Assembly (NCBI RefSeq): GCF_014839805.1
Contig: NW_023591836.1
Location: forward strand, 1-64,000
DNA length: 64,000 bases
DNA from: Manduca sexta
Taxonomy: Eukaryota; Arthropoda; Insecta; Lepidoptera; Sphingidae
Reading direction: 5' to 3'
The position numbers were made by a program, and so were the translations under genes. The notes under the pieces were generated by a model, which searched no databases, was not told where the DNA came from, and saw only the letters and a program-made list of their open reading frames with translations. Shown one piece after another: positions 1-64,000 of the stretch (its first letter is position 1; each line of letters begins with the position of its first letter).

Positions 1-541
1 TGTTCACGAGTATGGGGAAAGGATGGTCCGCCCAGGCAGTGCCTGTACCTGGGTAAGCCTAGCGTAACCCGCCAGAGGGTCGGCCGGTACTCTGGCGGGG
101 GTCGCACTGGACCGAACTACCCATCGGCCATGCATCCCTCGCGGTGCGCCGCCGCTTGGGATTCGGGGTGATTTTTATAGAGGTTTTCTTCCTCGCGGTC
201 CGGGCGGTTAAGCCAAGACCCTCGGTCCAGCAGGGCGCGAGACATATCCACAGACCTCCATACCGGATTACGATCTACGACGGCGACAATGGGAGGGAGA
301 GTCCCCCACTGCCTGCTCGGGGCGGGGTGAGCGCACACCGAGCCCGTCGACACCCCGGGACAGAACCGGGAGCCGCCCAGATGGGCCAATCTCGACACTA
401 CGACACGACGGCCGCCACAAGAGGCGACGACCGCCAACCAACTCATTGTCAGGATATTCGCCGGCGCGCAGATCAGCCTGATCGGTCTGATCGACGCGCC
501 GTTGCCAAGTGCACCACGAGGAGGTTCCCGACCTAGCACCC
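1..541 (-). mobile_element. E0: TRAS-like telomeric retrotransposon, 5' UTR only
   Basis: This is the 5' end of a minus-strand element whose body lies beyond the left edge of the window. Position 1 sits a few bases outside the place where ORF1 starts in the other copies, so only the 5' UTR and the terminal ribozyme region are present. The UTR is the shorter 'A' form, also seen in E4 and E10. It lacks the roughly 90-bp block around the GTCGAC/GTCGTCG motifs found in the 'B' form of E1, E2, E3, E5, E6, E8 and E9. No coding sequence is claimed here. Confidence 0.9.
444..541 (-). ncRNA. HDV-like ribozyme of E0, degenerate
   Basis: The region aligns with the canonical 98-nt ribozyme of E3. The P4 hairpin and the J4/2 GGCGAAT strand are kept. 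P1 is weakened: the 5' strand has only three G before TGC, and the returning strand is GCACTT, which gives two G-U pairs. The joining strand has lost one G and P2 has a G-U pair. Self-cleavage is predicted to be poor. Confidence 0.75.
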
Positions 542-555
542 AACCTAACCTAACC
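542..555. repeat. Telomeric (CCTAA)n between E0 and E1
   Basis: Fourteen bases of AACCTAACCTAACC stand between the 5' end of E0 and the T tract (556-561, the poly(A) tail of E1). This is fewer than three units of the insect telomere repeat. The junction phases are TT before the element's first G and CC before its poly(T). Confidence 0.95.
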
Positions 556-7062: not shown

Positions 7063-7160
7063 GTCAGGATATTCGCCGGCGCGCAGATCAGCCTGATCGG
7101 TCTGATCGACGCGCCGTTGCCCGGAGTGCACCACGAGGAGGTTTCCTGACCTAGCACCCC
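7063..7160 (-). ncRNA. HDV-like ribozyme of E1
   Basis: The fold is as in E3. P2 (GTCAGGA with TCCTGAC), P3, the GGGCAAC joining strand, P4 and the J4/2 GGCGAAT strand are unchanged. The returning P1 strand is GCACTCC, so P1 still has seven pairs. The G1-U wobble that flanks the scissile bond in HDV is replaced by G1-C, with a G-U at the third pair. It is probably active but altered. Confidence 0.85.
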
Positions 7161-13694: not shown

Positions 13695-13794
13695 GTCAGG
13701 ATATTCGCCGGCGCGCAGATCAGCCTGATCGGTCTGATCGACGCGCCGTTGCCTTAGAAGGTGCACCACGAGGAGGTTTCCTGACCTAGCACCC
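13695..13794 (-). ncRNA. HDV-like ribozyme of E2, damaged
   Basis: P2, P3, P4 and the J4/2 GGCGAAT strand match E3. The returning P1 strand and the joining strand are disrupted: GCACC is followed by TTCTAA before GGCAAC. This shortens P1 and removes part of the GGG needed for P1.1. Cleavage is predicted to be lost or weak. Confidence 0.75.
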
Positions 13795-13904
13795 CAACCT
13801 AACCTAACCTAACCTACCTATCTAACCTAACTAGCCTTTTAGACTAGCTTATTAGCCTTTCGCACTAGCCTGAGCCTTTTCCTTTTTCCCAACCTCCTAA
13901 CGTT
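13795..13904. repeat. Degenerate telomeric spacer between E2 and E3
   Basis: About 110 bases. It opens with perfect AACCT units, then drifts through variants such as CCTAC, CTAT, TAGCC and CCTTTT, and ends at the 3' end of E3 without a clean T tract. It is the only junction with this much decay. It may be mutated telomere repeat, or repeat mixed with a degraded poly(T). Confidence 0.8.
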
Positions 13905-14482
13905 GGTTTCGCGGAGAAAGTGCCTTATTACTACCGCCCAGCCTTCGCGGGGGGCGACTGAGCGGTTATGTTGGGGTAGCCGTTGCCTTACGACCCGACA
14001 ATTGAGCGGCCCGGAACCCACGGGCGGCGGTCGGGCCGAGTCCCTAACCCTAACAAACTAGTCCCTACGCAACGACCTACCAACTAAAACTCCGCGTTGA
14101 CCCTCTTCGGCGCATAGGGACGACTGCGTGCTACCTCGTGACACCAGGTCCGAGTTTCGTCCGCGGCCGCCCTGCGCGGTGCCGCCTGCGGCCCGTCTCC
14201 TAAATGGGGGGGGCTCCTAAGCCCCCCGCGCACCGAAGAACGCTCTCAGCGTCAGCGGCAGCGTGAGGTCAACACCACACTGCCGCCCATCCCGGGGTCA
14301 ACCGAAAGTGCGATGAACGCACTACACGCACTGAAAAGTGCGCGCTCACTAGAGACGGACAGCCCCCTGCTGCCCGCCGACGACCCCTTCGTGGCCCCTA
14401 TTAGTCGCCTCTTACGACAGGCAGGGGTTTACCGTGGTGGTATTCTCCAAACGCCCCCATTCCACAGGGCGGGAGACGCCGG

Positions 14483-17400
14483 TCAGTCGTCCACCCGGCG
14501 CCTCCTACGTCTCCTCTGACGGCGGGAGGGATCGGCCCGTTCCCGATCCCTCTCGGCACTCTCCTTCTGCGAGAGAACCACCTCACAGAAGTGGGCCACC
14601 GCACGCCAGGCCTCCCGACTGTCGACCATGGACGCGACCACAGCCGGCAGCGAGGGTCTCCTCCGACGACTGACACGAGAGCGCTGCGCTCATCGTCCCA
14701 GGCTGGGCAAGACTCCAACGTATGTTGGGCCGTATCCCGCGGGCAGTTGTCACAATGGTGACACACGGCGCTTATCTCCGTCCCTGCTATCTGACACAGG
14801 TACTCCCCGAAGCACCCATGCCCGGTGAGCACCTGTGTCAATCTAAAGATTGCCGCGCCGTGGCGCCCTGTCCAGCTCACTGTGCAAAGACAGGACGCAC
14901 TGCCGCGACGGCCCGAAGCCCCGCTGTCGGGGCCTCCAGCCTGAGACGCCACTCCTCCACGGCGGCTCGCCGTAGGGAGGCCCTCTTGGCCTCCACCTCC
15001 TTCAGGGCCGGACGCTGCCCGTTCCTGAACGCCTCCTCCCTCCAATGGAATGTATCGGAGAGAGCCTTGGCGTCCAGATCCCAGGGCAGGAATCCGGCCA
15101 AAAGATAACCGCCTCGAACGAGACCGTGCGATACGCCCGTATGGCCCGCTGCGCAATGACCCGCTGCGGGCCCCGCAGGAAAACGGCAGAACGCTCCCCT
15201 AGGGCGTCAGCCCAGACCGGGCTGCCGTATAGTGCTATGGACCGCACGACCCCGTGGTATAACCTTCGACAAGGGATATTTGGACCTTCCAGGTTGGGCA
15301 GCAGGCTGGAAAGAGCGCCCGCCGCCCTGGTCAACTTTGTCCTTAAACTTTTAAAATGGGCGCTGAACTCCCATCGGCTATCCAAGATCAAACCTAAATA
15401 CTTCATGGTATTGCCGATGGGAATCCGCACCCCCTCCACTACGATGTGGGCACCGGCCGGTGGCCCCCTAAACCTAAACGCCGAATGCGGCTCACTACAT
15501 GACCGGTGCCCACCGCCGCCAGGATCGCGGCGCCCTGGAAGGTCTTAGACGTCGCCGTGACCAACGTGTCATCCGCATAACACGTCACGTCGACGCCCCA
15601 GAGATTGGCACCACGGAGCACCCAGTCGTACCCGATGTTCCACAAGAGGGGCCTAGAACCGACCCCTGTGGAACACCGCACGACATCGCTCTTCGGTGCC
15701 ACCCGTCGGCGCCCGGATACACCACGTACCTGTCAGAAAGGTACGCGTGCACCAGACGCCTGAGATAGGGCGGCACCACATGGTACCGCAGTGCTTCGTT
15801 GATGCATGGCCAGGGGAGCGAATTAAAAGCGTTGGAGATGTCGAGTGAAACCGCGATGACGACTTTTCCCCTGGCCACTGCTGCCTCCGCCTGCGACTTG
15901 ACCCGCAGAATCGCGTGGACAGTTGAGCGTCCACTCCTAAAGCCAAACTGTTTGTCGGCCAAATTTGGACCGACCCTCTCGAGATGCTCGACGAGGCGCG
16001 CGTGTATAATACGCTCAAAAAGTTTGGCGACCTCGTCGAGCAGCACGATGGGCCGGTAGGCCGACGGCGACTCTGCGGGTCTCCCCTCTTTCTTAAGCAG
16101 GACGAGCTTCCCGACTTTCCAACGCGCCGGGAAGACGCCCTGCACCATACAGGCGGAGAATAGACTGCGGAGCCGCGGCCCCAAGTACTCGAGGGCTAAC
16201 ACCCAGGCTTTCCCGGGGATGCCGTCGAGACCCGGGGCGGTGTTTTTGCCCGCAGTCGAAACACTGCCGCCCGCATTTCCGCGGGCGAAACCTCTGGAAT
16301 ATCCCTTGCCGAAAGTTCCGACGACGATGACGCCACTTCCGGTGGCGCCATCGGTGGAGGAGTGGTCTCCTCGGTGGCCGGGAACAAGGCCGCGACAACG
16401 TTGGCCAACAGATCGGGCCTGAGACTCTCCGACAGTGGGGGCGCCGCCGAACGAAGCTTGTTCATAACTAGCTTGTATGGGCGCCCCACGGGTCCGCGTC
16501 GAGAGTCTCCAAAAACTCCCCTACGTGCCGCGACCTTGGCCCTATGAATGGCCACCCGCAGCGCTCTCTTCGCCTCCTTGTAGAGGCCGTAGAGCTGCCG
16601 CTCCTGGTCTTCGTGGTCTCTTCCTCGGATTCGGCGGCGGCGATGCCTGGCGCATCGGCGGCGCGCAGCCACGCATGACGCGCGCAACTGAGCTAACTCC
16701 GCCGACCACCAGTACACCTCCCGCCGCGGAGGACGACGGAGCGCCCGGGGCATGGCGGCGTCGCAGACATCCGACATTGCCACCCCGAACCACTCCGCCT
16801 CCTGCTCTACCCGAACCGGACCCTCCGGCTCGGGGAGCCACGAACTGCCAGAGCGGCCAGCTCTAGGGCCTCCTTGTCGAGGCGCCTTAACGCCCACCGC
16901 GGGCCGTCCTGTCGAGGGGCACTCGGTCCACCAATACTATTGGGCCGGATACTCGGGGGCGCGGAGACATCGAACCTTATATAACGGTGGTCCGACAGCG
17001 TCTCCACGCCCACGAGGACTCTCCAGCCCTGGACACGACGTGCGACGGCGGGGCTCCCAAACGACAAATCCACAATAGACCCGCCGTTGTGCCGCACGCA
17101 CGTGTCCACCGACCCCCTGTTCAGGACGACCAGGCCGACGGAAATCGCCCATTCCTCCAGGACCTCACCGCGAGCGTCGGTCGCCGGCGAACCCAGACCG
17201 CGGACTTCGCGTTGAAGTCGCCGGCGACGATCGCCGGGTGAGGTTGGCCCTGCTCAACCAGGGCCCCCAGCCGAACGAGAAAAGATTCGAACTCGGCCAG
17301 AGGTCTGTTGGGGGAGAAATAAACTCCTACAATCCACAAGTCCCCCAACAGAGCCGCGACGCATCCCTGGCCCTTCTCGACTTTTGCGAAGGGCGGGGAG

Positions 17401-17588
17401 CCAGCGGCACCCTGGGTGATGATGGCCACCGACCCGTCGATGTCCCCTACCCAGTTATCTCGGGGCGGGACAAAATACGGTTCGGCGACCACGGCCACTT
17501 GCACCGACCACTGCGCCAGGCTTTGGGACAACAGGTCCTGGGCGCGGGCGCAGTGGTTGATGTTCGCCTGGAGGAAACTTAGGTCCAT
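14483..17588 (-). pseudogene. E3 ORF2: endonuclease/reverse transcriptase, frameshifted and with a short deletion
   Basis: The start ATG (17586-17588) overlaps the ORF1 stop. The first about 150 residues are open and include the LQANINHC block, VVAEPY and the GDFNAKSAVW block of an AP-type endonuclease. SDH follows in another frame (16807-17109). RT fingers, motif A and motif B (GVPQGSVLGP) are open in 15585-16202. YADD is in 15439-15702. At about 15467 some 55 bases are missing compared with E2, just after the palm. The C-terminal CCHC finger is present near 14720-14790. Confidence 0.9.
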
Positions 17589-17592
17589 TATT
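17584..17592 (-). promoter_or_regulatory. TAATG stop-start overlap of ORF1 and ORF2 (E3; conserved in all copies)
   Basis: The ORF1 stop TAA and the ORF2 start ATG share bases as TAATG (17586-17590). The same overlap is present at 4290-4294, 10945-10949, 24200-24204, 36674-36678, 44602-44606, 50854-50858 and 57482-57486. In the silkworm telomeric element SART1 an identical UAAUG drives coupled termination-reinitiation. The same mechanism is inferred here. Confidence 0.85.
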
Positions 17593-19795
17593 GATGGGCG
17601 ATCTCCTCCACGTCCATCTCGGCCACTGGTTGCGGTGGGCCCGCCGCCTGCGGCTGGGACAGAACCTCAGCCGCGGCGGCATTCCTTCCTTGGGGGCGGC
17701 GCCGGTTGCGTCGGGAGGGGGCAGAACAAGCCTTCCCCCCGAGCCGGTGCCTGGCGGGCCTGCCGGCGGCAGCGCAGACTGCGCAGTTCGCCGGGGCCTT
17801 GCACTCACGGGCTTTGTGGCCCGCTTGACCGCAGCGGTAGCAAAGGTCGCTGCGGTCCACCGCGCAGTCGCAGCGCTCCCGGACGTGCCCGGACTCCAGG
17901 CACCGGAAGCACCGCATCGGCCGCGACTCGAGCACGGTCACCCGAGCCGCGGTCCAGCCAATAAGGATGCGGGCCGCCCCCCTAACTTTTTGCGCCGCCT
18001 TAATAGGCATCCTGACCCAGGCTGTCCCTACGCCGGATCGATCAGGGCGAATTTGCCCAACTTTTATCGCCTCCACGGCGCACTCACCGGTCTTGGAGAG
18101 GGCCGCTGCGACTGATTCTGGAGTGGCTGTATAGTCCAGCTCACTTAGCCGCAGTTCCACGGTCTTCGTGGGCCGGGAGATTCTGATATCTTCCGACCCC
18201 GTGAAACACTCCCTCAGCCTCGCGGCGAGGGAGTCGGCCCTCTCTTCGGAATTCGCCCCGGGCACCTCATACATTGGAGCGCCCGTGGCCGCAAACTTTG
18301 GCCTCATCTTGCTTATTTCAAGGCCGGTGAGGTCTACCTTATTTTGGGCGTCCGTTAGGACGCTCTTATAGGTCAGGCCCTTCGCAATTGCTGCTGGTGT
18401 GAGGGAGATGACTACGGCCGCAGAACGTGGCGGCCGCAGTTTCGGCTCCTTCCGGCGCGTCGGTTTCGGCGGCTGCGTGCTGTTTGTTGGCGCTGCTGCC
18501 GGCTTCCCCTTCTTCTTTCTTCTGACCACCTCGACCCACGGCGTGTCCACGTTAGCCGGGGCTGGCGGCAGCACGCGGGGCTCTGGAGCGGGTTGGGCTG
18601 GAGGCGGTCCGTTCTTCTTGCCCTTTTGGGGCTTTTGTTTGGGCGTCTCTCTCCTTCGGTCCTGGGTCTTCTTTGCCGCCGATGCCGTCGTAGTCACCGG
18701 GGCCGTGGAGGGACCCGCGACAGGTTGTGGCGGCGCACTGGAGGGCCCAGCGACTGGAGCAGGGAGGGGGGCAGGAGCGGGAGCGGGTTGGGCTGCTCCC
18801 TTCTCTTTCCTTTTTCCCTTGCCTTTGGCCGGTTTTGGGTTCGGCGCCCCTCCTACGTATCCGCTCGTCACGGGGAGTTGTGTGTCCCCGGAGGCGGTCC
18901 TTCTTTCGGGCCAGCGGGGGCCGTTGCGCCGGGCCCATGAGGATAGATTCCATTTGGGCTTGGACCCTCGCTTCGACCATCGCCAGCATCTCCTCTGTCG
19001 ATGACTTGTTTGCGGACGCCTCCAGGTCTTCGAGGCGTCGTTTTAGGGTGGCATTCTCCTCCTTCATGGCCTTCATGTTGGCTTCAAGACGGGCACTGTG
19101 TTCCTGCCACTTCTTTATTTCCTCCTCGAGGCGCGCGATGACAGCGGACTCAGGCTGTTCCACGTACTTCACGATCTTGTCCGTGACCCAGTTAAGCGCT
19201 TTCTGGGAAGTGCCTTTGAGGTTGCCTGACTTCCTCACGACATTGCGAACAACCTGGGTGCACTTACGGAGGTCTTCCTTGAGTACTGGACGGTCCTCTT
19301 CGGTGTCTGATATTCTGGGGGGGACCGGCGACTTGATAAATTGCAGCTGGTCCTCCAGCTCCTTCTCTGCGTCTTTCCGCGCCGGCTTCCCGTTGAAGCC
19401 TGTCACGCTCCAACTGCGCTTTCTTGAGGCCGACGTACTTGCCCACTGAGGGCGGGCGTCCTCTCATTCTGCCGTCGATCGCCTGCGTCTTCGGCGCCGG
19501 TTCGTCGGTGTCGCTGGTCAGACTGAGCTGCGAAAAGCTGCTTCTTGTGTGCGACTTCCTTCTCCAGAGCTTTTTGCTCCTCACGGTAGAGCCACTCTCG
19601 CTCGAGTCCGTGTCCAGGCTCAAAGGCCGCGCGAATTCGGCTGCCACCTCCATGGGCATCGCGCCCGTTGTCTCCCTTCACTACGTCTTCGTCGTTGGGC
19701 TTGCACCCTTCGACCACCGCCTCTCCGGACGAAACCGAAGAAGGCAACTTCGTCAATAAAATTATTGGGGTTTTGTTTTGATTAAAGGATTCCAT
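17588..19795 (-). pseudogene. E3 ORF1: Gag-like RNA-binding protein, intact C-terminal 427 codons
   Basis: About 736 codons from the MES- start. Order of parts: acidic Ser/Asp-rich N terminus; coiled coil near residues 110-150; a conserved KSGNLKGTSQKALNWV block; a second coiled coil near 230-275; a Pro/Ala-rich linker; basic patches (RRKKKGK, RRKEPKLRPPR) that could serve nuclear entry; a conserved Gag core starting near YKSVLTDAQNKVDLTG; and three zinc knuckles at about 17727-17915, spaced CX2CX4HX4C, CX2CX4HX4C and CX2CX8HX6C. The triple knuckle is typical of R1-clade and I-like ORF1, which packages the RNA into RNP. The segment 17588-18871 is fully open. A 2-base loss near 18908 and further shifts near 19380 and 19675 break the N-terminal part. 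Confidence 0.92.
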
Positions 19796-20354
19796 AATTG
19801 TTCCCACGAGTGTGGGGGAAAGGGTGGTCCGCCCAGGCAGTGCCCCCTGTACCTGGGTAAGCCTAGCGTAACCCGCACAGAGTGTCGGCCGGTACTCTGG
19901 CGGGGGTCGCACTCGAGACCGAACTACCCATCGGCCATGCATCCCCTCGCGGTGCGCCGCCGCTTGAGATTCGGGGTGATTTTTTATAGAGGTTTTCTTC
20001 CTCGCGGTCCGGGCGGTTAAGCCAAGACCCTCGGTCCGGCAGGAGCGCGAGACATATCCACAGACCTCCATACCGGGTTACGATCTATGACGGTGGCAAT
20101 GAGAGGGAAAATCCCCCCACTGCCTGCTCGGGGCGGGGTGAGCGCACACCGAGCCCGCCGACACCCCCGGGACGGAACCGGGAGCTGCCCGAGATGGGCC
20201 CCACGACGTTGTCCTAGTCGACGGCGGAAAATATCGTCAGCGGGCCTACTCGCCAACGCCACAAGTGACGGAGAGACTGGTCGACGACGACACTGTCCGA
20301 CGGCGTAACTAGACGGCGGCCGCCGCAAAAGGCGACGACCGTCAACAACTCGTT

Positions 20355-20452
20355 GTCAGGATATTCGCCGGCGCGCAGATCAGCCTGATCGGTCTGATCG
20401 ACGCGCCGTTGCCCAGGGTGCACCACGAGGAGGTTTCCTGACCTAGCACCCC
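20355..20452 (-). ncRNA. HDV-like self-cleaving ribozyme at the 5' end of E3 (canonical)
   Basis: Read on the minus strand from 20452, the first 98 nt match the HDV double pseudoknot. P1 is GGGGTGC with GCACCCT, ending in the G1-U wobble. P2 is GTCAGGA with TCCTGAC. P3 is ACC/GGT closing an L3 of TCCTCGT. The joining strand is GGGCAAC. P4 is GGCGCG/CGCGCC over a hairpin rich in GATC. J4/2 is GGCGAATA, with the catalytic C third. L3, GGGCAAC and GGCGAAT are also the hallmark bases of HDV itself. Cleavage would fall before G1, exactly at the telomere/element junction. HDV-like ribozymes at the 5' end of R2 and several other non-LTR elements cut the element out of co-transcripts and may aid translation. 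Confidence 0.94.
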
Positions 20453-20481
20453 AACCTAACCTAACCTAACCTAACCTAACC
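20453..20481. repeat. Telomeric (CCTAA)n between E3 and E4
   Basis: Twenty-nine bases of perfect repeat, followed by T15 (20482-20496), the poly(A) tail of E4. Confidence 0.97.
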
Positions 20482-21073
20482 TTTTTTTTTTTTTTTGGTT
20501 TCGCGGAGAAAGTACCTTATTACTACCGCCCAGCCTTCGTGGGGGGCGACTGAGCGGTTATGTTGGGGTCACCGTGCCTTACGACCCGACGTTGCGCCGC
20601 CCGGAATTGATGTAGACCTTCGGGCGACCGCCGGGCCGAGTCCCTAACCTATGTACAACGCACGGCATACCAACTAAAACTCCGCGGTGGCCCTCTTCGG
20701 CGCATTAGGGACGGCTGCGGGCTTCCTCTGACGTTGAAATGTCTAGTCTGCGACCGCAACCGCCCCTGCGCGGTGCCGCCTTGCGGCCCGTCTCCTATGG
20801 GGGGGGCTCAAACCCCCGCGCACCGAAGGACGCCCTCGGCGTCTACGGCAGCGTGAGGCCAACAACACACTGCCGTCCATCCCGGGGGTCAACCGAGAGT
20901 GTGCGATGAACGCACTGCGCGCACTGAAAAGTGCGCGCGCACTAGGACGGGCAGCCCCCTGCTGCCCGCCGACGACCCCTTCGTGGCCCCTATTAGTCGC
21001 CTTTTACGACAGGCAGGGGATACCGTGGTGGAATTCTCCAAACGCCCCCATTCCACAGGGCGGGAGACGCCGG

Positions 21074-26825: not shown

Positions 26826-26923
26826 GTCAGGATATTAGCCAGCGCGCAGATCAGCCTGATCGGTCTGATCGACGCGCCGTTGCCCAGGGTGCACCACGAG
26901 GAGGTTTCCTGACCTAGCACCCC
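26826..26923 (-). ncRNA. HDV-like ribozyme of E4
   Basis: P1 with the G1-U wobble, P2, P3, L3 and GGGCAAC are identical to E3. J4/2 is GGCTAAT instead of GGCGAAT. It keeps the catalytic C and the C-N-R-A pattern. One G-U replaces a G-C pair at the base of P4. Probably still active. Confidence 0.88.
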
Positions 26924-32825: not shown

Positions 32826-32923
32826 GTCAGGATATTCGCCGGCGCGCAGATCAGCCTGATCGGTCTGATCGACGCGCCGTTGCCCAGGGTGCACCACGAG
32901 GAGGTTTCCTGACCTAGCACCCC
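32826..32923 (-). ncRNA. HDV-like ribozyme of E5 (canonical)
   Basis: Identical to the E3 ribozyme in every stem, in L3, in GGGCAAC and in the J4/2 strand. It sits on an element with a large coding deletion, so the 5' end is preserved independently of coding capacity. Confidence 0.93.
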
Positions 32924-39247: not shown

Positions 39248-39345
39248 GTCAGGATATTCGCCGGCGCGCAGATCAGCCTGATCGGTCTGATCGACGCGCC
39301 GTTGCCCAGGGTGCACCACGAGGAGGTTTCCTGACCTAGCACCCC
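39248..39345 (-). ncRNA. HDV-like ribozyme of E6 (canonical)
   Basis: All core elements are as in E3. The catalytic C is the complement of the G at 39260. Confidence 0.93.
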
Positions 39346-39384: not shown

Positions 39385-40876
39385 TTTTTTTTTTTTTTTT
39401 GGTTTCGCGGAGAAAGTGCCTTATTACTACCGCCCAGTCTTCGCGGGGGGCGACTGAGCGGTTATGTTGGGGTAGCCGTTGCCTTACGACCCGACAATTG
39501 AGCGGCCCGGAACCCACGGGCGGCGGTCGGGCCGAGTCCCTAACCCTAACAAACTAGTCCCTACGCAACGACCTACCAACTAAAACTCCGCGTTGACCCT
39601 CTTCGGCGCATAGGGACGGCTGCGTGCTACCTCGAGACAGCAGGTCCGAGTTTCGTCCGCGGCCGCCCCTGCGCGGTGCCGCCTTGCGGCCCGTCTCCTA
39701 AATGGGGGGGGCTCCTAAGCCCCCGCGCACCGAAGGACGCTCTCAGCGTCAGCGGCAGCGTGAGGTCAACACCACACTGCCGCCCATCCCGGGGGTCAAC
39801 CGAAAGTGTGCGATGAACGCACTACACGCACTGAAAAGTGCGCGCGCACTAGGACGGACAGCCCCCTGCTGCCCGCCGACGACCCCTTCGTGGCCCCTAT
39901 TAGTCGCCTCTTACGACAGGCAGGGGTTTACCGTGGTGGTATTCTCCAAACGCCCCCATTCCACAGGGCGGGAGACGCCGGTCAGTCGTCCACCCGGCGC
40001 CTCCTACGTCTCCTCTGACGGCGGGAGGGATCGGCCCGTTCCCGATCCCTCTCGGCACTCTCCTTCTGCGAGAGAACCACCTCACAGAAGTGGGCCACCG
40101 CACGCCAGGCCTCCCGACTGTCGACCATGGACGCGACCACAGCCGGCAGCGAGAGGTCTCCTCCGACGACTGACACGAGAGCGCTGCGCTCATCGTCCCA
40201 GGCTGGGCAAGACTCCAACGTATGTTGGGCCGTATCCCGCAGGCAGTTGTCACAATGGTGACACACGGCGCTTATCTCCGTGCCTGCTATCTGACACAGG
40301 TAGTGCCCGTAGCACCCATGCCCGGTGAGCACCTGTGTCAATCTATAGGTTGCGGCGCCGTGGCGCCTGTCCAGCCACTGTGCAAAGACAGGACGCACTG
40401 CCGCGACGGCCCGAAGCCCCGCTGACGGGGCCTCCAGCCTGAGACGCCACTCCTCCACGGCGGCTCGCCGTAAGGAGGCCCTTTGCGCCTCCACCTGCCT
40501 CCGGGCCCGACGCTGCCCATGCCTGAACGCCTCCTCCCTCCAATGGAATGTATCGGAGAGAGCCTTGGCGTCCAGATCCCAGGGCAGGAATCCGGCCAAA
40601 AGACTAACCGCCTCGAACGAGACCGTGCGATACGCCCGTATGGCCCGCTGCGCAATGACCCGCTGCGGGCCCCGCAGAGAGCGGCAGAACGCCCCTAGGG
40701 CGTCAGCCCAGACCGGGCTGCCGTATAGTGCTATGGATCGCACGACCCGTGGTATAACCTTCGACAAGGGATATTTGGACCTTCCAGGTTGGGCAGCAGG
40801 CTGGAAAGAGCGCCCGCCGCCCTGGTCAACTTTGTCCTTGGTGCTCAAACCTAAATCTTCTAATCCTTGCCGTTGG
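39385..40876 (-). mobile_element. E7: 5'-truncated TRAS-like fragment
   Basis: Only the 3' 1.5 kb is present: poly(A) 39385-39400, 3' UTR 39401-39981 (B type) and the C-terminal third of ORF2. Near 40838 the match to other copies falters. After a gap of about 40 bases a diverged stretch (CAAACCTAAATC...TTGCCGTTGG) still resembles ORF2, and it then abuts the 3' end of E8 with no telomere repeat. It lacks RT palm, endonuclease, ORF1 and ribozyme. Confidence 0.9.
39982..40848 (-). pseudogene. E7 ORF2 C-terminal fragment: thumb and CCHC finger
   Basis: This is one open frame of 288 codons, from the thumb (VVRSIALYGSPVWADALG) through FHWREEAFRHGQR to the finger, then the Arg-rich tail and the normal stop. 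The finger reads CHHCDNCLRDTAQHTLESC. A small loss near 40745 fuses PR to VVRS. It carries private substitutions around 40478-40525 (for example RRARRQVEAQRA) not seen elsewhere. Confidence 0.88.
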
Positions 40877-41456
40877 GTTTTCGCGGAGAAAGTGCCTTAT
40901 TACTACCGCCCAGTCTTCGCGGGGGGCGACTGAGCGGTTATGTTGGGGTAGCCGTTGCCTTACGACCCGACAATTGAGCGGCCCGGAACCCACGGGCGGC
41001 GGTCGGGCCGAGTCCCTAACCCTAACAAACTAGTCCCTACGCAACGACCTACCAACTAAAACTCCGCGTTGACCCTCTTCGGCGCATAGGGACGGCTGCG
41101 TGCTACCTCGAGACAGCAGGTCCGAGTTTCGTCCGCGGCCGCCCCTGCGCGGTGCCGCCTTGCGGCCCGTCTCCTAAATGGGGGGGGCTCCTAAGCCCCG
41201 CGCACCGAAGGACGCGCTCAGCGTCACCGGCCGCGTGCGGTCACCGCCCCACTGCCGCCCCTCCCCGGGGACAACCGAAAGTGTGCGATGAACGCACTAC
41301 ACGCACTGAAAAGTGCGCGCGCACTAGGACGGACAGCCCCCTGCTGCCCGCCGACGACCCCTTCGTGGCCCCTATTAGTCGCCTCTTACGACAGGCAGGG
41401 GTTTACCGTGGTGGTATTCTCCAAACGCCCCCATTCCACAGGGCGGGAGACGCCGG

Positions 41457-44400: not shown

Positions 44401-44604
44401 TTTGCGAAGGGCGGGGAGCCAGCGGCACCCTGGTGATGATGGCCACCGACCCGTCGATGTCCCCTACCCAGTTATCTCGGGCGGGACAAAATACGGTTCG
44501 GCGACCACGGCCACTTGCACCGACCACTGCGCCAGGCTTTGGGACAACAGGTCCTGGGCGCGGGCGCAGTGGTTGATGTTCGCCTGGAGGAAACTTAGGT
44601 CCAT
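41457..44604 (-). pseudogene. E8 ORF2: endonuclease/reverse transcriptase, frameshifted
   Basis: It has the longest open frames of any ORF2 here: 42675-44171 (498 codons, from the middle of the endonuclease through RT motif A, although compensating shifts scramble short stretches) and 41974-42801 (275 codons: YLRRLVHAYLSDRY, motif B GVPQGSVLGPLLWN, CYADDTLV, thumb). The endonuclease start is open in 44464-44658. SDHRYIRF is intact. The C-terminal finger is in 41457-41789. Confidence 0.9.
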
Positions 44605-46634: not shown

Positions 46635-47192
46635 AATTGGTCCCTCGAGTATGGGCGGGAAAGGGTGGTCCGCCCAGGCAGAGCCCCCTGTACCTGGGTA
46701 AGCCTAGCGTAACCCGCACAGAGTGTCGGCCGGTACTCTGGCGGGGTCGCACTCGAGACCGAACTACCCATCGGCCATGCATCCCTCGCGTGCGCCGCCG
46801 CTTGAGATTCGGGGTGATTTTTATAGAGGTTTTTTCTTCCCTCGCGGTCCGGGCGGTTAAGCCAAGACCCTCGGTCCGGCAGGAGCGCGAGACATATCCA
46901 CAGACCTCCATACCGGTTTACGATTCTATGACGGTGGCAATGAAGGGAGATTCCCCCACTGCCTGCTCGGGGCGGGGTGAGCGCACACCGAGCCCGTCGA
47001 CACCCCCGGGACGGAACGGGAGCCGCCCAAGATGGGCCCCACGACGTTGTCCTAGTCGACGGCGGAAAATATCGTCAGCGGGCCTACTCGCCAACGCCAC
47101 AAGTGACGGAGAGACTAGTCGACGACGACACTGTCCGACGGCGTAACTAGACGGCGGCCGCCGCAAGAGGCGACGACCGTCAACAACTCGTT

Positions 47193-47290
47193 GTCAGGAT
47201 ATTCGCCGGCGCGCAGATCAGCCTGATCGGTCTGATCGACGCGCCGTTGCCCAGGGTGCACCACGAGGAGGTTTCCTGACCTAGCACCCC
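47193..47290 (-). ncRNA. HDV-like ribozyme of E8 (canonical)
   Basis: It matches E3 throughout, including the G1-U wobble, L3 TCCTCGT, GGGCAAC and GGCGAAT. The element body is heavily mutated but this 98-nt block is clean. Confidence 0.93.
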
Positions 47291-47911: not shown

Positions 47912-50856
47912 TCAGTCGTCCACCCGGCGCCTCCTACGTCTCCTCTGACGGCGGGAGGGATCGGCCCGTTCCCGATCCCTCTCGGCACTCTCCTTCTGCG
48001 AGAGAACCACCTCACAGAAGTGGGCCACCGCACGCCAGGCCTCCCGACTGTCGACCATGGACGCGACCACAGCCGGCAGCGAGAGGTCTCCTCCGACGAC
48101 TGACACGAGAGCGCTGCGCTCATCGTCCCAGGCTGGGCAAGACTCCAACGTATGTTGGGCCGTATCCCGCGGGCAGTTGTCACAATGGTGACACACGGCG
48201 CTTATCTCCGTCCTGCTATCTTACAAAGGTACTCCCCGAAGCACCCATGCCCGGTGAGCACCTGTGACAATCTAAAAGCTTGCCGCGCCGTGGCGCCTGT
48301 CCAGCCACTGTGCAAAGACAGGACGCACTGCCGCGACGGCCCGAAGCCCCGCTGACGGGGCCTCCAGCCTGAGACGCCACTCCTCCACGGCGGCTCGCCG
48401 TAAGGAGGCCCTTTTGGCCTCCACCTCCTTCAGGGCCGGACGCTGCCCATTCCTGAACGCCTCCTCCCTCCAATGGAATGTATCGGAGAGAGCCTTGGCG
48501 TCCAGATCCCAGGGCAGGAATCCGGCCAAAAGACTAGCCGCCTCGAACGAGACCGTGCGATACGCCCGTATGGCCCGCTGCGCAATGACCCGCTGCGGGC
48601 CCCGCAGAAGAGCGGCAGAACGCTCCCTAGGGCGTCAGCCCAGACCGGGCTGCCGTATAGTGCTATGGACCGCACGACCCCGTGGTATAACCTTCGACAA
48701 GGGATATTTGGACCTTCCAGGTTGGGCAGCAGGCTGGAAAGAGCGCCCGCCGCCCTGGTCAACTTTGTCCTTAAGCTTTTTAAAATGGGCGCTGAACTCC
48801 CACCGGCTATCCAAAATCAAACCTAAATACTTCATGGTATTGCCGATGGGAATCCGCACCCTCCACTACGATGTGGGCACCGGCCGATGGCCCCCTCCGA
48901 GCCGCCCGTGAAAGCAGATGGCCTCGGTCTTCTCGAGGGCCACCTTCAAACCTAAACGCCGAATGCGGCTCACTACATGACCGGTGCCCACCGCCGCCAG
49001 GATCGCGGCGCCCTGGAAGGTCTTAGACGTCGCCGTGACCAACGTGTCATCCGCATAACACGTCACGTCGACGCCCCAGAGATTGGCACCACGGAGCACC
49101 CAGTCGTACCCGATGTTCCACAAGAGGGGCCTAGAACCGACCCCTGTGGAACACCGCACGACATCGCTCTTCGGTGCCACCCGTCGGCGCCCGGATACAC
49201 CACGTACCTGTCAGAAAGGTACGCGTGCACCAGACGCCTGAGATAGGGCGGCACCACATGGTACCGCAGTGCTTCGTTGATGCATGGCCAGGGGAGCGAA
49301 TTGAAAGCATTGGAGATGTCGAGTGAAACCGCGATGACGACCTTCCCCCTGGCCACTGCTGCCTCCGCCTGCGACTTGACCCGCAGAATCGCGTGGACAG
49401 TTGAGCGTCCACTCCTAAAGCCAAACTGTTTGTCGGCCAAATTTGGACCGACCCTCTCGAGATGCTCGACGAGGCGCGCGTGTATAATACGCTCAAAAAG
49501 TTTGGCGACCTCGTCGAGCAGCACGATGGGCCGGTAGGCCGACGGCGACTCTGCGGGTCTCCCCTCTTTCTTAAGCAGGACGAGCTTCCCGACTTTCCAA
49601 CGCGCCGGGAAGACGCCCTGCACCATACAGGCGGAGAATAGACTGCGGAGCCGCGGCCCCAAGTACTCGAGGGCTAACACCCAGGCTTTCCGGGGATGCC
49701 GTCGAGACCCGGGGCGGTGTTTTTGCCCCGCAGTCGAAACACTGCCGCCCGCATTTCCGCGGGCGAAACCTCTGGAATATCCCTTGCCGAAAGTTCCGAC
49801 GACGATGACGCCACTTCCGGTGGCGCCATCGGTGGAGGAGTGGTCTCCTCGGTGGCCGGGAACAAGGCCGCGACAACGTTGGCCAATAAATCTGGCCTGA
49901 GACTCTCCGACAGTGGAGGCGCCGCCGTACGAAGCTTGTTCATAACTAGCTTGTATGGGCGCCCCCACGGGTCCGCGTCGAGAGTCTCCAAAAACTCCTG
50001 CGTGCCGCGACCTTGGCCCTATGAATGGCCACCCGCAGCGCTCTCTTCGCCTCTTTATAGAGGCCGTAGAGCTGCCGCTCCTGGTCTTCGTGGTCTCTGC
50101 TCGGATTCGGCGGCGGCGATGTCTGGCGCATCGGCGGCGTGCAGCCACGCAAGACGCGCGCAACTGCGCTAACTCCGCCGACCACCAGTACACCTCCCGC
50201 CGCGGAGGACGACGGAGCGCCCGGGGCATGGCGGCGTCGCAGACATCCGACATTGCCACCCCGAACCACTCCGCCTCCTGCTCTACCCGAACCGGACCCT
50301 CCGGCTCGGGGAGCCACGAGACTGCCAGAGCGGCCAACTCTAGGGCCTCCTTGTCGAGGCGCCTTAACGCCCACCGCGGGCCGTCCTGTCGAGGGGCACT
50401 CGGTCCACCAGTACTATTGGGCCGGATACTCGGGGGGCGCGGAGACATCGAACCTTATATAACGGTGGTCCGACAGCGTCTCCACGCCCACGAGGACTCT
50501 CCAGCCCTGGACACGACGTGCGACGGCGGGGCTCCCAAACGACAAATCCACAATAGACCCGCCGTTGTGCCGCACGCACGTGTCCACCGACCCCTGACAA
50601 TCCACAAGTCCCCCAACAGAGCCGCGACGCATCCCTGGCCCTTCTCGACTTTTGCGAAGGGCGGGGAGCCAGCGGCACCCTGGGTGATGATGGCCACCGA
50701 CCCGTCGATGTCCCCTACCCAGTTATCGCGGGGAGGGACAAAATACGGTTCGGCGACCACGGCCACTTGCACCGACCACTGCGCCAGGCTTTGGGACAAC
50801 AGGTCCTGGGCGCGGGCGCAGTGGTTGATGTTCGCCTGGAGGAAAACTAGGTCCAT
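47912..50856 (-). pseudogene. E9 ORF2: reverse transcriptase with deleted endonuclease core
   Basis: The start frame (50455-50856) reads through LQANINHC and VVAEPY to LLGDLWIV, then jumps straight to GRWTRACGTTAG. About 70 residues are lost, including the GDFNAKS block. SDH survives in another frame. The RT is well kept: 49063-50448 is open for 461 codons, though composite, and includes LLDEVAKLFER, SLDISNAFNSLPW and the start of motif B. YADD is in 48866-49180 and the finger in 47912-48196. Endonuclease activity is not expected. Confidence 0.9.
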
Positions 50857-53070
50857 TACTGATGGGCGATCTCCTCCACGTCCATCTCGGCCACTGGTTG
50901 CGGTGGGCCCGCCGCCTGCGGCTGGGACAGAACCTCAGCCGCGGCGGCATTCCTTCCTTGGGGGCGGCGCCGGTTGCGTCGGGAGGGGGCAGAACAAGCC
51001 TTCCCCCCGAGCCGGTGCCTGGCGGGCCTGCCGGCGGCAGCGCAGACTGCGCAGTTCGCCGGGGCCTTGCACTCGCGGGCTTTATGGCCCGCTTGACCGC
51101 AGCGATAGCACAACTCGCTGCGGTCCACCGCGCAGTCGCAGCGCTCCCTAACGTGCCCGCTCTCCAGGCACCGGAAGCACCGCAGGGGCCGCGACTCGAG
51201 GACAGTCACTCGAGCCGCGGTCCAACCGATCAAAATTCGGCCCGCCCCCTTCACCTTTTGGGCCGCCTTTATGGGCAAACGAACCCAGGCGGTCCCAACG
51301 CCGGAGCGATCAGGGCGAATTTGCCCCACCTTGATTGCGTCCGCGGGACACTCACCGGCTCTGGAGAGGGCCGCTGCGACCGACTCCGGAGTGGCCGTGT
51401 AGTCTAACTCCGTCAGCCGCAGCTCTGCAGTCTTCGTGGGCCGGGAGATCTTAATATCCTCCGACCCACCGAAGCACTCCCTCAGCCTTGCGGCGAAGGA
51501 GTCGGCCCTCTCCTCGAATTGGCCCCGGGCACCTCGTACATCGGGGGCGCCCGTGGCCGTGAACTTCGGCTTTAGCCTCGAGATATCCAATCCGGTGAGG
51601 TCCACGCGATTCTGTGCGTCAGTGAGGACGCTCTTGTACGTCAGACCATTTTCCACTGCTGCCGGTGTCAACGAAATTACCACGGCCGCAGATCGTGGCG
51701 GCCGCAATTTGGGTTCCTTTCGGCGCGAAGGTTTTGGCGGCTGCACGCTGGTTGTTGTCGGTGCTGCTGTCGTCCTCCCCTTCTTCTTCCTTCTGGCCAC
51801 CTCGACCCATGGCGTCTCCATTGAGTCAGGGGCCGGCGGCAGCGGACGGGGCTCCGGCGCGGGTTGAACTGCCGGCTCTTTTCTTCCGCCCCTTTGGCTT
51901 CTTTGCAGGCGCGCTCTTCTCTCGTCCTCGGTCTTGCTGGCGCCATCGCGGGTGTCGACGCCGCCGCTGTAGAAGGGCCCGCTACGGCTTGCGGCGGAGC
52001 GCTGGAAGGCCAGCAATGGGAGCGGGGATAGTGGGGCAGGAGCGGGAGCCGGAGCGGGCTGGGCCGTCTTTTTCCCCTTCCTTTTCCTTTTCTCCTTCCT
52101 CGGCTTGGCGTGGGTTCCGCCAACATAGCCATCGCTCACTGGGAGTTGTACATCTCCTGGAGTGGCCTTTTCTCTCGTGTGCCAGCGAGGGCCGTTGCGC
52201 CGGGCCCATGAGGATCGATTCCATCCGGGCTTGGACCCTCGCTTCGACCATCGCCAGCATCTCTCTGTTAGACGGCCCTTTGGCGGCCGCTTCCAGCTCT
52301 TCGAGGCGTCGTTTCAGAGCTGTGTTCTCCTCCTGGATGGTCTTCATGTTTGCCTCGAGCCGGGCACAATTCTCCTGCCACTTCTTTGGCCTCGCCCTCG
52401 AGGCGAGCGATTGCAGCGGACTCAGGTTGGTCAACATACTTGGCGATTTTGTTCGTGACCCAGTTTAGTGCCTTCTGGGAAGTGCCTTTGAGGTTGCCAG
52501 ATTTCCTCACTGTTGTGCGTACTACCTGGACACACTGCCTTAGGTCTTCCCTCAGCACGGGTCGGTCCTCATCTTCGGTCTCTGATGCCTTAGGAAGGAT
52601 CGGCGACTTGACAAAATGGAGCCGGTCCTCCAATTCCTTGTCGGCCTTCTTCTTCGCCTCTTCGCGTTGGAGCTTATCCCGTTCGAGCTGAGCTTTCCTC
52701 AAGCCGACATATTTGCCGACTGAGGGCGGGCGTCCTCTCCCTCTGCTGTCAGTCGTTTGCGACTTTGGCGCTGGTTCGTCGGTGTCGCTGGTGAATTGCG
52801 ACAAACTGTGCCTTGAGCGCGAGTTCCTCCTCCAAAGTTTTTTGCTTCGTACGGTGGAGCCGCTCCCACTTGAGTCCGAGTCTAAGCTCGGAGGCCGTAC
52901 GAATTCAGTTGCCACCTCCATGGGCTTCGCGCCCGTGTTCTCCTTCTCTACTTCGCCATCAGCGGGCTTTCGCCCCCGAACTCCGCCTCCTCAGCCCCGG
53001 ATTCCGGAACTAGAGAAGGCAACTTCGTCAAAAGAATTATAGGTTTTTTTATGTTTTGTAAGGATTCCAT
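50856..53070 (-). pseudogene. E9 ORF1: Gag-like protein, intact C-terminal 427 codons
   Basis: About 738 codons from the MES- ATG at 53070. The segment 50856-52139 is open and contains the linker, both basic patches, the complete Gag core and three perfect CCHC knuckles. The segment 52268-52921 is open for the N-terminal coiled coil and the KSGNLKGTSQKALNWV block. Frame shifts near 52010, 52200, 52395 and 52925 separate the pieces. It is the reference for the ORF1 subtype shared by E2, E5 and E6. Confidence 0.9.
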
Positions 53071-53628: not shown

Positions 53629-53727
53629 GTCAGGATATTCGCCGGCGCGCAGATCAGCCTGATCGGTCTGATCGACGCGCCGTTGCCCAGGGTGCACCAC
53701 GAGGAGGTTTCCTGACCTAGCACCCCC
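53629..53727 (-). ncRNA. HDV-like ribozyme of E9 (one extra 5' G)
   Basis: The core is as in E3. The 5' end has five G instead of four before TGC, so either one G lies upstream of the cleavage site or it was added during integration. All stems and the catalytic strand are intact. Confidence 0.92.
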
Positions 53728-60171: not shown

Positions 60172-60269
60172 GTCAGGATATTCGCCGGCGCGCAGATCAG
60201 CCTGATCGGTCTGATCGACGCGCCGTTGCCCAGGGTGCACCACGTGGAGGTTTCCTGACCTAGCACCCC
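60172..60269 (-). ncRNA. HDV-like ribozyme of E10
   Basis: P1 60263-60269 pairs with 60232-60238. P2 60253-60259 pairs with 60172-60178. P4 60219-60224 pairs with 60187-60192. The catalytic C is the complement of G60184. L3 is TCCACGT (one change from TCCTCGT). All other core bases equal E3. Probably active. Confidence 0.92.
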
Positions 60270-60314
60270 AACCTAACCTAACCTAACCTAACCTAACCTA
60301 ACCTAACCTAACCC
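60270..60314. repeat. Telomeric (CCTAA)n at the proximal border of the array
   Basis: About 44 bases (nine units) of perfect repeat, ending AACCC, the longest uninterrupted telomere block in the window. To the right the composition changes and a plus-strand element starts without a recognisable 5' end. Confidence 0.96.
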
Positions 60315-60701
60315 AGGAAAAGGGCGAGAAATCCACTAACATCACATGTGGCGATACAGGTGCCTCCGCGAATATGGAAGTGCCTCACGGAAGAGGGATC
60401 TGTCCATATTGATGTGCAAAGAGTGAGGGTGGAGGACCAATCTCCTCTTATACAGTGCTCGCGCTGCCTGGGCTATGGGCATGGAAGGCGCTTCTGTCGG
60501 GAACAGGTCGACATATGTAGTCACTGCGGGGGAGCGCATCACAGATCGGAATGTGCCGACTGGATGGCAAAGGTGCCCCCGTCGTGCTGCAACTGCACAA
60601 AGGCCAAGCTCGATGGGGCCGCCCATAGTGCCTTTAGCCCAGAGTGCCCAGTGAGGAGGAAGTGGGAAACCTTAGCGAGATCGGCAATTGCGTACTGCTG
60701 A
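60315..60701 (+). pseudogene. Gag C terminus with three zinc knuckles, 5'-truncated
   Basis: The frame is open from the telomere junction to the TGA at 60699-60701. No ATG is in frame at the beginning, so the N-terminal part of ORF1 is missing. Knuckles: CSRCLGYGHGRRFC (CX2CX4HX4C), CSHCGGAHHRSEC (CX2CX3HX4C) and CCNC...H...C (CX2CX9HX6C). They bind nucleic acid in the retrotransposon RNP. ORF2 begins in another frame at about the stop codon. Confidence 0.85.
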
Positions 60702-61667
60702 GGTGGACAATGGGAACCCGGATCAGACCAGCACCCCAACAAATGCCACATCGACCTTCGTCGTGCAAGTCAATCTGCAGCGTAAGAAGTTGGCAACAGA
60801 GGAGCTTCTTATAGAAGCAACCAACAGAAAGGTCGATGTGGCATTGCTCCAGGAGCCATATGTGGGAAGCAAAGGTAGAATGAGGGATCATCGCGGGGTC
60901 AGAATCTTCCAAGGGATAAACGGAAACGGGGCCGTAGTCAAGTCAGCAATCGCGGTTTTCAACGACGGTTGGACTGCGACCCCGTGCCCGGCCCTAACCA
61001 CGACCAACATCACAGTGGTGAAGATTCAAACCGGAGCGCGTGATCTGATTCTGATCTCGTTCTACTTTGAGCCAGACAAACCCATAGGGCCATACTTGGA
61101 GCAGTTGGGGAAGGCGGTTGAAACACTGGGTCGAAACGGAATCCTCATTGGGGGCGACACCAATGCAAAAAGCATATGGTGGGGCAGCGCAGAGACAGAC
61201 AGTAGAGGAGAAGAAATGGCGGGCATGCTTGGGGAATGGGGACTTCAGGTACTCAACGACGGCGGGTCTCCAACGTTTGAAACGGTGAGAGGAGGAAACT
61301 CCTCACCAGTCATATTGACATAACGGCCTGCTCAGAGGACATAGTGGACAAGATAAACGACTGGAGGGTAGACGATACCATGGCGAGTTCGGACCACAAC
61401 GCGATAACTCTGAAAATTAGAAAAAGTAAAGACAACAATGTTAAACGTAAACATAAAACAACAAGGAAATACAATACAAGGAAAGCAAACTGGACATATT
61501 TTAACGAAAAATTGAAGGAGCTGTTAGAAAATAACAAATTAGAAGAATCAGAAATTATAAATATAAATAATAAAACAAATTTAGACAAGATAATAAATAA
61601 ATATATACAAACAATAATAGAAACTAGCAATAATACAATACCATTAATAAAATCAAAAATAGGATAA
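60690..61667 (+). pseudogene. AP-type endonuclease domain of ORF2, one frameshift
   Basis: The segment 60690-61323 is open and holds VVQVNLQRKKLATEELL, VDVALLQEPYVG, GGDTNAKSIWWGS and the PTFET strand. The frame then shifts (about 61310-61323) into 61344-61667, which carries the catalytic ASSDHNAI motif and a Lys/Asn-rich linker. Residues for metal binding and catalysis (N, E, D/N and SDH) are all visible. No ATG is seen at the ORF1/ORF2 boundary, so the exact start is uncertain. Confidence 0.83.
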
Positions 61668-61669
61668 AC

Positions 61670-63184
61670 TTACCGTGGTGGTCCGATGAACTCGCCAAAA
61701 TGAAGCGTGAGGTGAACACCAAAGAAGGAGAATCCGATGCGCAGCGCCGATCCGAAGAGCCAAGGTCGTCGACGAGTACCTGAAATCAAAAGAAGAATAT
61801 GAGAACGAGGCAAAAGGGGCTCAGGATTGATAGTTGGAAAGAGTTTTGTAGGAAACAGAACAGAGAAACCATTTGGGAAGGAGTCTATAGGATAATAGGA
61901 AAAGCATGCCCGATGAAAGAAGATCTGCCATTAATACACCAAGGACAGACCCTTACCGAAATAGAGTCGGCGAAGCTGTTGGCGGAAACGTTTTACCCAG
62001 AAGACAATCCAGAGACCGATAACGCAGAACATCAGCGGATAAGAAGTGCAGCCACAAAAGTAAATGATAGAGTCTATGATGAACCACATGACCCACCATT
62101 TACCATAGAAGAACTCCACTTAGCTGCAAACAGCTTTAATCCAAAGAAAGCTCCAGGCTCAGACGGTCTTACAGCAGATATCTGCAAACAGGCCATAGCG
62201 GCTTCCCCCAGGGTTATACCTGTCACTGGCTAACAAATGCCTCGAACTTGGCCACTTCCCGACCATCTGGAAGGAGGCAACGGTCATAGTCCTCCGGAAA
62301 CCAGCAAAGGAGGACTATACGAATGCTAAATCGTACAGACCGATAGGCTTGTTACCAGTGATGGGTAAAATCCTGGAAAAGATGGTAGTGGGTCGGGTGA
62401 GGTGGCATCTGCACCCTAGGACACACCCCGCCAGTTTGGCTTTATGCCCCAGAGAGCACCGAAGACTCCCTCTATGTCCTGATGAAGTATATAAGAGACA
62501 GACTATCGGAAAAGAAAATAGTAGTCATTGTTTCATTGGACATAGAGGGAGCCTTGACAGCGCCTGGTGGCCAGCAATCAGTCAGACTGGCGGAGGAAGG
62601 ATGTCCAGCCAACATCAGAAGGGTTGTAGATAGCTACCTCCAGAGCAGAAAAGTTAAAGTAAGGTATTCCGGTGAAGAGGTCGAGAGATGGACCTCCAAG
62701 GGATGCGTACAGGGATCCATTGGAGGCCCAACCTTCTGAATCTGCTCCTCGACCCACTGCTGTTCGAGCTTGACAGACGTGGCAGTCACTGCCAAGCTTT
62801 TGCCGACGACGTGGTGCTCGCGTTTGAAGGGCAAGAGATGGGCGAAATACAAAGAGGGCCAATGAAACGCTGGCCTATGTGAAGGACTGGGAATCCGAAA
62901 CAAACTTAAGTTTGCGCCGCACAAAACCAAGGCCATGGTAATAACGCGCAAGCTTAAGTACGATTCCCCGATCCTCCACATGGGGGCGTAGACATTGGTC
63001 TGGAAAACAAATAAAAATACTGGGAGTCACCATCGACAGCGGGCTGACTTTCAATACTCACGTATCCGAAGTTTGTAGAAAGGCAGTCGCCTTCTACAAC
63101 AAGCTATCCCGGGCGGCGAGGCTGCAATGGGGCTGGGGCCAGACGTTATAAAGCTGCTATATACGGCTGTCGTGGAGCCAGTAG
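61670..63184 (+). pseudogene. Reverse transcriptase domain of ORF2, multiply frameshifted
   Basis: Fingers begin in 61799-62233 (FTIEELHLAANSFNPKKAPGSDG). After a shift near 62215, RPIGLLPVMGKILEKMV follows at about 62340-62400. Motif A (IVVIVSLDIEGA) is in 62482-62739 and is damaged after GA. QGSIGGPTF is interrupted by a shift at 62735. HCQAFADDVVLAFEG (62790-62832) holds the catalytic FADD. The thumb is broken again near 62880 and 62990. It is not expected to be functional. Confidence 0.8.
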
Positions 63185-64000
63185 TTTTATACGGAGCAAG
63201 GGGGCTTTCCGGCCTCGCGAAAACTCGGAGTGAGGAAGCAGCTCGCTGTCGTCCAAAGAGGCTTTGCGCAAAAGCTCACGAAGGCCTACAGAACCGTCTC
63301 ACTAAACTCGGCCCTACTGCTCGCCGGAATATTGCCCCTCGATATACGTGCGAGGGAGAACGCCTCCCTATACGAAATAAAGAGGGATACTCGGCGAGTG
63401 GTGGGAGACCGAGAGGTGGAACGGCCTGTGGCCTACGGCGAGCTCGAGCACCCGGCGCAGCGGAGCATGGTCCGATATCGGTGCCTGGCGGACGGTGCAG
63501 AAGTGAACCAAATTACCAGCCAGTGCCTCTGTATATATACAGATGGCAGCAAAATACAAGACAGAGTCGGAGCGGCAATCTCAATCTGGGAAAATGCCGC
63601 CGAGACAAGAAGCAAAAAATTTAAAATGGAATCCTTCTGCACCGTCTACCAGGCGGAACTGCTGGCCCTTCACGGAGCCACGGAGGAAGCGGTCAAAAGT
63701 GGGAGGGAAATTTGCAGCGTCCTGAGCGACTCGAGGGCGGCGCTGGACACCGTAGCAGACGGAACTTCCCTCCATCCCCTTGCGTTCAAAATTAGGAAAA
63801 ATTTAAGAACATTAAAGGAACGCAACAAAATAATAAACCTATTTTGGATAAAGGCACACGCAGGGATGGTGGGAAATGAGCGAGCAGACGAGCTCGCAAA
63901 GGACGCAGCACTTAAATCCAAAACCAAACCTCAGTATAGCAGATGCCCTGTCTCATACGTCAAGAGACAAATTAGAGCGGAGTCAGTCGACGAATGGGAC
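63185..64000 (+). CDS. Thumb and RNase H domain of ORF2, open to the window end (partial)
   Basis: This frame is open from 63185 to the last base. It starts with the connection segment (KLGVRKQLAVVQRGF, then AYRTVSLNSALLLAG and LDIRARENASLYEIKR, typical of R1/I-like elements). RNase H begins at about 63530 with IYTDGSK (D at 63542). The other acidic residues are seen in CTVYQAELLAL, VLSDSRAAL and GNERADELAK, and WIKAHAG precedes the last. All four D-E-D-D positions are therefore present. The domain would remove RNA from the RNA-DNA hybrid during integration. The protein continues outside the window. Confidence 0.85.

Follow-up and report, generated by a model that had tools for sequence, protein, structure and literature searches.

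A predicted HDV-like self-cleaving ribozyme at the first bases of telomeric SART retrotransposons in Manduca sexta

The window, meaning the whole stretch of 64,000 nucleotides of Manduca sexta DNA that was analysed, contains non-LTR retrotransposons arranged head to tail on the minus strand. Ten element 5' ends were found, and an HDV-like ribozyme fold is intact at eight of them (Table 1). The unit at 39386-47290 is 7.9 kb long, compared with 6.0-6.6 kb for the other eight units. None of the SART units in the window has a full-length open ORF1 and ORF2, and the broken frames may reflect decay or assembly error. Nine near-threshold Rfam matches to mir-3389 were also observed on the plus strand, opposite to the elements (42643-42709, 55521-55587, 15622-15687 and six more), and this microRNA family may be derived from SART-like elements.

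Table 1 Coordinates of the predicted ribozymes, their parts and the surrounding elements in the window.
Feature	Position	Strand	Remarks
HDV-like ribozyme, whole	20355..20452	-	G1 = 20452; direct reading, Rfam, geometric descriptor
P1 5' strand GGGGTGC, nt 1-7	20446..20452	-	predicted cleavage immediately 5' of G1; target-site duplications of dispersed relatives abut G1
P2 5' strand GTCAGGA, nt 11-17	20436..20442	-	direct reading; two doubly changed pairs in L065
L3 loop TCCTCGT, nt 22-28	20425..20431	-	flanked by P3 strands 20432-20434 and 20422-20424 (nt 19-21/29-31)
P1 3' strand GCACCCT, nt 32-38	20415..20421	-	direct reading; G1.U wobble in P1
GGGCAAC (P1.1 / J1.1-4), nt 39-45	20408..20414	-	direct reading; aligned to RF00094 consensus
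P4 stem-loop, strands nt 46-52/77-83	20370..20407	-	folding
J4/2 GGCGAATA, nt 84-91	20362..20369	-	C86 (20367) = position of catalytic C
P2 3' strand TCCTGAC, nt 92-98	20355..20361	-	direct reading
Telomeric repeat directly upstream of G1	20453..20482	-	TTAGG on element sense strand
Ribozyme, another array unit	7063..7160	-	RF00094, descriptor
Ribozyme, J4/2 variant GGCTAATA	26826..26923	-	RF00094, descriptor
Ribozyme, another array unit	32826..32923	-	RF00094, descriptor
Ribozyme, another array unit	39248..39345	-	RF00094, descriptor
Ribozyme, another array unit	47193..47290	-	RF00094, descriptor
Ribozyme, another array unit, one extra G upstream	53629..53726	-	RF00094, descriptor
Ribozyme, L3 variant TCCACGT	60172..60269	-	RF00094, descriptor
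Damaged ribozyme, P1 3' strand altered with extra bases	13695..13795	-	no descriptor hit
Damaged ribozyme, start and P1 changed	448..542	-	weak RF02682 match, 22.7 bits
SART-type element begun by the 20355-20452 ribozyme	13832..20452	-	3' end approximate; frames broken
TAATG stop/start overlap of ORF1/ORF2, 13832..20452 element	17586..17590	-	
ORF1 piece with zinc knuckle, another unit	50859..52313	-	
ORF2 piece with reverse transcriptase domain, another unit	49066..50454	-	
TRAS element, 5'-truncated, contrast only	60314..64000	+	runs on to contig base 64734

By their sequence, the ribozyme-bearing elements are members of the SART family of R1-type, TTAGG-specific non-LTR retrotransposons. 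Their sense strand lies on TTAGG and their poly(A) is joined to AGG. The same layout is described for SART1Bm, with sense on TTAGG, a TT/AGG target site and poly(A) joined to AGG, while TRAS inserts the other way (PMC7265360). Orientation alone is indecisive because one Bombyx SART lineage mentioned in PMC10088271 seemed oppositely inserted. A UAAUG overlap of the ORF1 stop and ORF2 start, a SART1 feature according to the title of Kojima 2005 as cited in PMC5563155, occurred as TAATG eight times in the window and also in two dispersed copies (L070 and L072); the same test did not find TAATG at the ORF1/ORF2 border of L071 and L073. The ORF1 and ORF2 pieces contain a zinc knuckle and an R1-type endonuclease and reverse transcriptase, respectively. 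P0043 of Papilio xuthus may be a SART protein.

The original prediction had placed the ribozyme in TRAS-type elements, an assignment in keeping with the TTAGG specificity and with the best match of the endonuclease among solved structures, which is TRAS1 (PDB 1wdu), well ahead of R1Bm. Identity to TRAS1 is nevertheless only 35% over 122 columns for the two matches of full length and 35-48% for the shorter pieces from other units, compared with 56% (77 aa) and 46% (41 aa) in the neighbouring plus-strand element, the real TRAS of the window, and the ribozyme elements do not have their sense strand on CCTAA as TRAS does. That TRAS element reaches from the telomeric tract lying upstream of the SART copy at 60269 as far as contig base 64734 (L082), where its 21 terminal A residues run into CCTAA; it is regarded as 5'-truncated because two other copies extend further upstream. 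Two TRAS copies are preceded by tandem repeats of ~640 bp upstream of ORF1 (L088, L089, L090; C2 and C578), which run off contig C578 and are possibly a repeated TRAS 5' region. No HDV match at E<=1 was found in the scanned parts of TRAS loci L082, L085, L087, L088 and L089, parts that stop short of the TRAS 5' terminus. The ribozyme was assigned to SART because of the orientation, the TAATG overlap and an endonuclease less TRAS1-like than that of the TRAS next door. The TRAS label is contradicted by these three features and by the poly(A)/AGG junction, and the idea of the ribozyme residing in a true TRAS-type element is hardly credible.

Read along the minus strand, from 20452 down to 20355, the SART start runs GGGGTGC TAG GTCAGGA A ACC TCCTCGT GGT GCACCCT GGGCAAC, followed by the P4 stem-loop, GGCGAATA and TCCTGAC. 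Helices P1, P2, P3 and P4 form the nested double pseudoknot of the HDV class, with an L3 loop and a J1.1/4 segment capable of forming P1.1. P2 is a perfect helix of 7 bp, and the P4 stem-loop folded by itself gave -25.8 kcal/mol with a z score of -4.88. The J4/2 consensus of HDV-like ribozymes is C followed by N-R-A, and J4/2 at 20355-20452 reads GGC-G-AATA. The sequence at the predicted cut is TTAGGTT/GGGG by direct reading, the slash marking the cut. Direct reading returned the same pairings as those first proposed, and the scissile bond that had been predicted between the telomeric TT and the first G falls where the flank, and the target-site duplications of dispersed relatives that abut G1, would have it. 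The observation is confirmed at the exact place claimed; the fold and its position, like the SART identity above and the abutting duplications below, are established by the DNA itself.

At the gathering threshold, Rfam returned no hits in the whole 64-kb window. In a permissive search, RF00094 aligned end to end with 20355-20452 (model positions 1-89 of 89) at 39.9 bits, with an E-value of 1.6e-4 for 361 bases and 0.029 for 64 kb; the gathering cut-off of this model is 50 bits. RF02682, with a cut-off of 44 bits, scored 26.1 bits at the same place in a permissive search. On the minus strand of the window, RF00094 matched the 5' ends of eight elements at 36.1-39.9 bits under permissive settings. 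No hit reached the cut-off, the best score in the genome being 47.5 bits. A gathering cut-off is a curated database threshold and not a biochemical definition, and the fold and the E-value together still favour the HDV class. P2 counts as additional evidence because it is unpaired in the structure line of Rfam.

A geometric descriptor, composed after the sequence had been seen, gave eight hits when both strands of the 64 kb were searched, every one of them at an element G1 (7160, 20452, 26923, 32923, 39345, 47290, 53726 and 60269), and three hits in total on 20 dinucleotide shuffles. Of 2661 candidates for RF00094 across the 470-Mb genome, 86 were scored and 85 matched at E<=10, none of them above the cut-off; the same search of control genomes gave below-cut-off matches in 4 of 14. 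Thirty-nine of the genome matches were examined (L031-L069), comprising 38 SART-type starts and one other element. A 27-base start pattern occurred 224 times in the genome at <=2 mismatches, and the reversed pattern did not occur. The plasmid collection gave no match. Among viral contigs the protein had no relatives and the pattern had one match (L083), which was without an HDV match in Rfam.

Conservation of the fold was assessed in 67 distinct 5' ends, namely those that passed a filter for an intact 5' half. J4/2 reads GGCGAATA in 39 ends, GGCTAATA in 13, GGCCAATA in five and AGCGAATA in one, with nine other forms. The base after the J4/2 C is accordingly variable (G in 39, T in 13 and C in five of the 67), and the C and the AA are kept in all 57 of these ends. 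Of the nine other forms, four retain GGCGAATA next to an altered P2 strand, four are a base short and in one the C is missing. When 13 forms were aligned, 99.4% of cells paired, a share raised by the selection of these 13 as intact from 33 distinct forms; none of 500 shuffles was equally good, and slid versions of the alignment pair at 31-53%. Seven pairs are changed on both sides, two in P2 and five in P4, all of them in a single row (L065) and hence representing one lineage.

Representatives of subtypes B, C and D and of a second telomeric type share 59-60 of the 60 core bases with the window unit, whereas UTR positions 151-250 hardly align with it and positions 251-650 are 82-100% alike. 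This contrast is limited to comparisons with the window unit, because subtypes B and C share 56 of 60 core bases and are 94% alike at positions 151-250. Part of the core conservation also stems from how the loci were chosen, namely for resemblance to the 5' start or to RF00094. Folding of the P4 stretch of subtype C favours a shifted register, with a weak z score of -1.42. These data bear on whether the fold is an inherited relic that is inactive in the Manduca sexta genome. The lack of a window unit with full-length open ORF1 and ORF2 speaks for a relic, as do the damage at two of the ten window starts and the indels in some other starts; every part is nevertheless retained at most of the starts examined, and among the dispersed copies several subtypes preserve 59-60 of the 60 core bases, albeit in loci fetched by core likeness. 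A relic is accordingly considered improbable, and a functional ribozyme is preferred.

SART-like elements were also found outside telomeres, represented by L070-L073 and 16 further dispersed rows (two pairs with a common flank), and these copies include several ribozyme subtypes with a different P4 and a longer L3. In all four full-length dispersed copies examined (L070-L073), a target-site duplication of 15-16 bp ends directly before G1, as determined by a search that was unable to extend into the element. Only L071 has an unambiguous border; the border could fall inside the G-run in L070 and L073 (1 nt) and L072 (2 nt), because the base or bases after the downstream copy are also G. Three of the four duplications begin with AGG, the A adjoining the poly(A). 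A 15-bp duplication would fit the telomeric copies too, though it is invisible there.

Telomeric flanks are present at 45 of the 67 ends, and 41 of these 45 read TT/GGGG at the predicted cut (37 AGGTT, two GGTTT and two GGGTT). The remaining 22 ends have mostly unrelated flanks, and 21 of them start with GGGG; they include one end flanked by just one AGGTT, two pairs that have a flank in common and a ribozyme that is partly duplicated. The ending of the duplications at the predicted cut is consistent with self-cleavage immediately 5' of G1. It is also evidence, left by past insertions, that the RNA being copied stopped at this point.

An unrelated element family also carries an HDV-like ribozyme at its beginning (L065 at C7:4616635, L084, and L092 at C7:4612329). 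L092 is a 73% relative of L065, alike from G1 onward with different flanks, and the two match RF00094 weakly at 37.6 bits (L065) and 33.1 bits (L092). Only the first 45-46 nt of L065 are in common with the SART copies compared (89-91% with intact starts), and a 248-nt match between L065 and L070 falls outside the element of L070. The L065 ORF had no match in Pfam, and an ORF behind a ribozyme of this family had a single hit, a Manduca protein 97% identical over 391 aa. No reverse transcriptase ORF was recognised by eye among ORFs >=100 aa in 5.8 kb. Since P1 of HDV ribozymes can have any sequence, the identical P1 of L065 and SART points to a shared or captured module and away from convergence.

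The tetranucleotide CGTG lies at element nt 26-29, inside L3/P3 of the ribozyme. SART1 is listed in PMC4748587 among elements with a CGTG downstream promoter element, with the same +1 as the start of an internal promoter. The conserved 5' sequence could on that basis be mainly a promoter, with RNA polymerase II starting at +1, the CGTG at nt 26-29 acting as a downstream promoter element and the HDV fold incidental or vestigial. A promoter leaves unexplained the paired changes of L065 in P2 and P4, as well as the kept GGGCAAC and C-N-AA, which are far from CGTG. The two functions can moreover coexist, as reported for L1Tc, where promoter and ribozyme are combined in one sequence (PMC4748587). 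A purely promoter-based account is for these reasons thought unlikely to hold. A few SART bases that the literature treats as a promoter element also lie at the heart of the predicted ribozyme, and this conflict is testable. Tentatively, and with more doubt than confidence, the published SART +1 'transcription start' may be partly a ribozyme product, the L3/P3 CGTG serving both as a DNA promoter element and as an RNA ribozyme loop; as part of the same proposal, the first 45 nt may be a portable module captured by the unrelated family (C7:4616635, C7:4612329), the examined copy of which shares only this stretch from G1 with SART.

Taken as a self-cleaving ribozyme, 20355-20452 very probably forms the first bases of the SART element and allows read-through RNA to be cut before G1 to give a full-length template. 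RNA reading in from the telomere upstream, or from the preceding unit of the array, would fold into the ribozyme, and the J4/2 cytosine would help to cut the bond before G1, leaving an RNA with a 5'-OH at G1. This RNA would be the full-length template, on which target-primed reverse transcription would proceed from the poly(A) to G1 before the product is joined to the target. Because reverse transcription would run to G1 and join the target there, each new copy would regain the ribozyme at its exact end. We infer catalysis, the 5'-OH end, and a use in (and need for) retrotransposition from sequence. The proposed mechanism would explain how head-to-tail telomere elements could obtain unit-length templates with exact 5' ends out of read-through RNA.

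The original prediction knew of no such ribozyme in TTAGG-specific elements, a claim of novelty that does not survive PMC11620745, which, citing Ruminski 2011, names telomere-specific SART as one of the elements that have HDV-like ribozymes. Among the papers searched, none combined an HDV-like ribozyme with Manduca sexta. The ribozyme class and the SART family are already reported; the present analysis adds the 5' ends mapped by target-site duplications, the dispersed SART-like copies, the unrelated sharer of the first 45 nt and the overlap of the ribozyme loop with CGTG. The SART ribozymes of Ruminski 2011, as described in PMC11620745, are of the same ribozyme class, element family and 5' UTR location, probably from another host species. 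SART1Bm of Bombyx mori shares the orientation, the TT/AGG site and the poly(A)-AGG junction, and the word 'ribozyme' is absent from the main text of PMC7265360. TRAS1 (PMC2868851; PDB 1wdu) is TTAGG-specific with a related endonuclease, like the window elements, but has the opposite orientation and an endonuclease ~35% identical, and the TRAS parts scanned, which exclude the 5' terminus, had no HDV match. The R2 ribozymes are also HDV-like, and Drosophila R2 is cut at the exact 5' junction; R2 differs in its rDNA target and in that most species tested cut 9-36 nt upstream, in the 28S RNA (PMC3774820). L1Tc, with its Pr77/L1TcRz sequence, is a trypanosome element and not telomere-specific, but likewise has CGTG near +25 in the P3 loop region and an HDV-like ribozyme at the 5' end of a LINE (PMC4748587).
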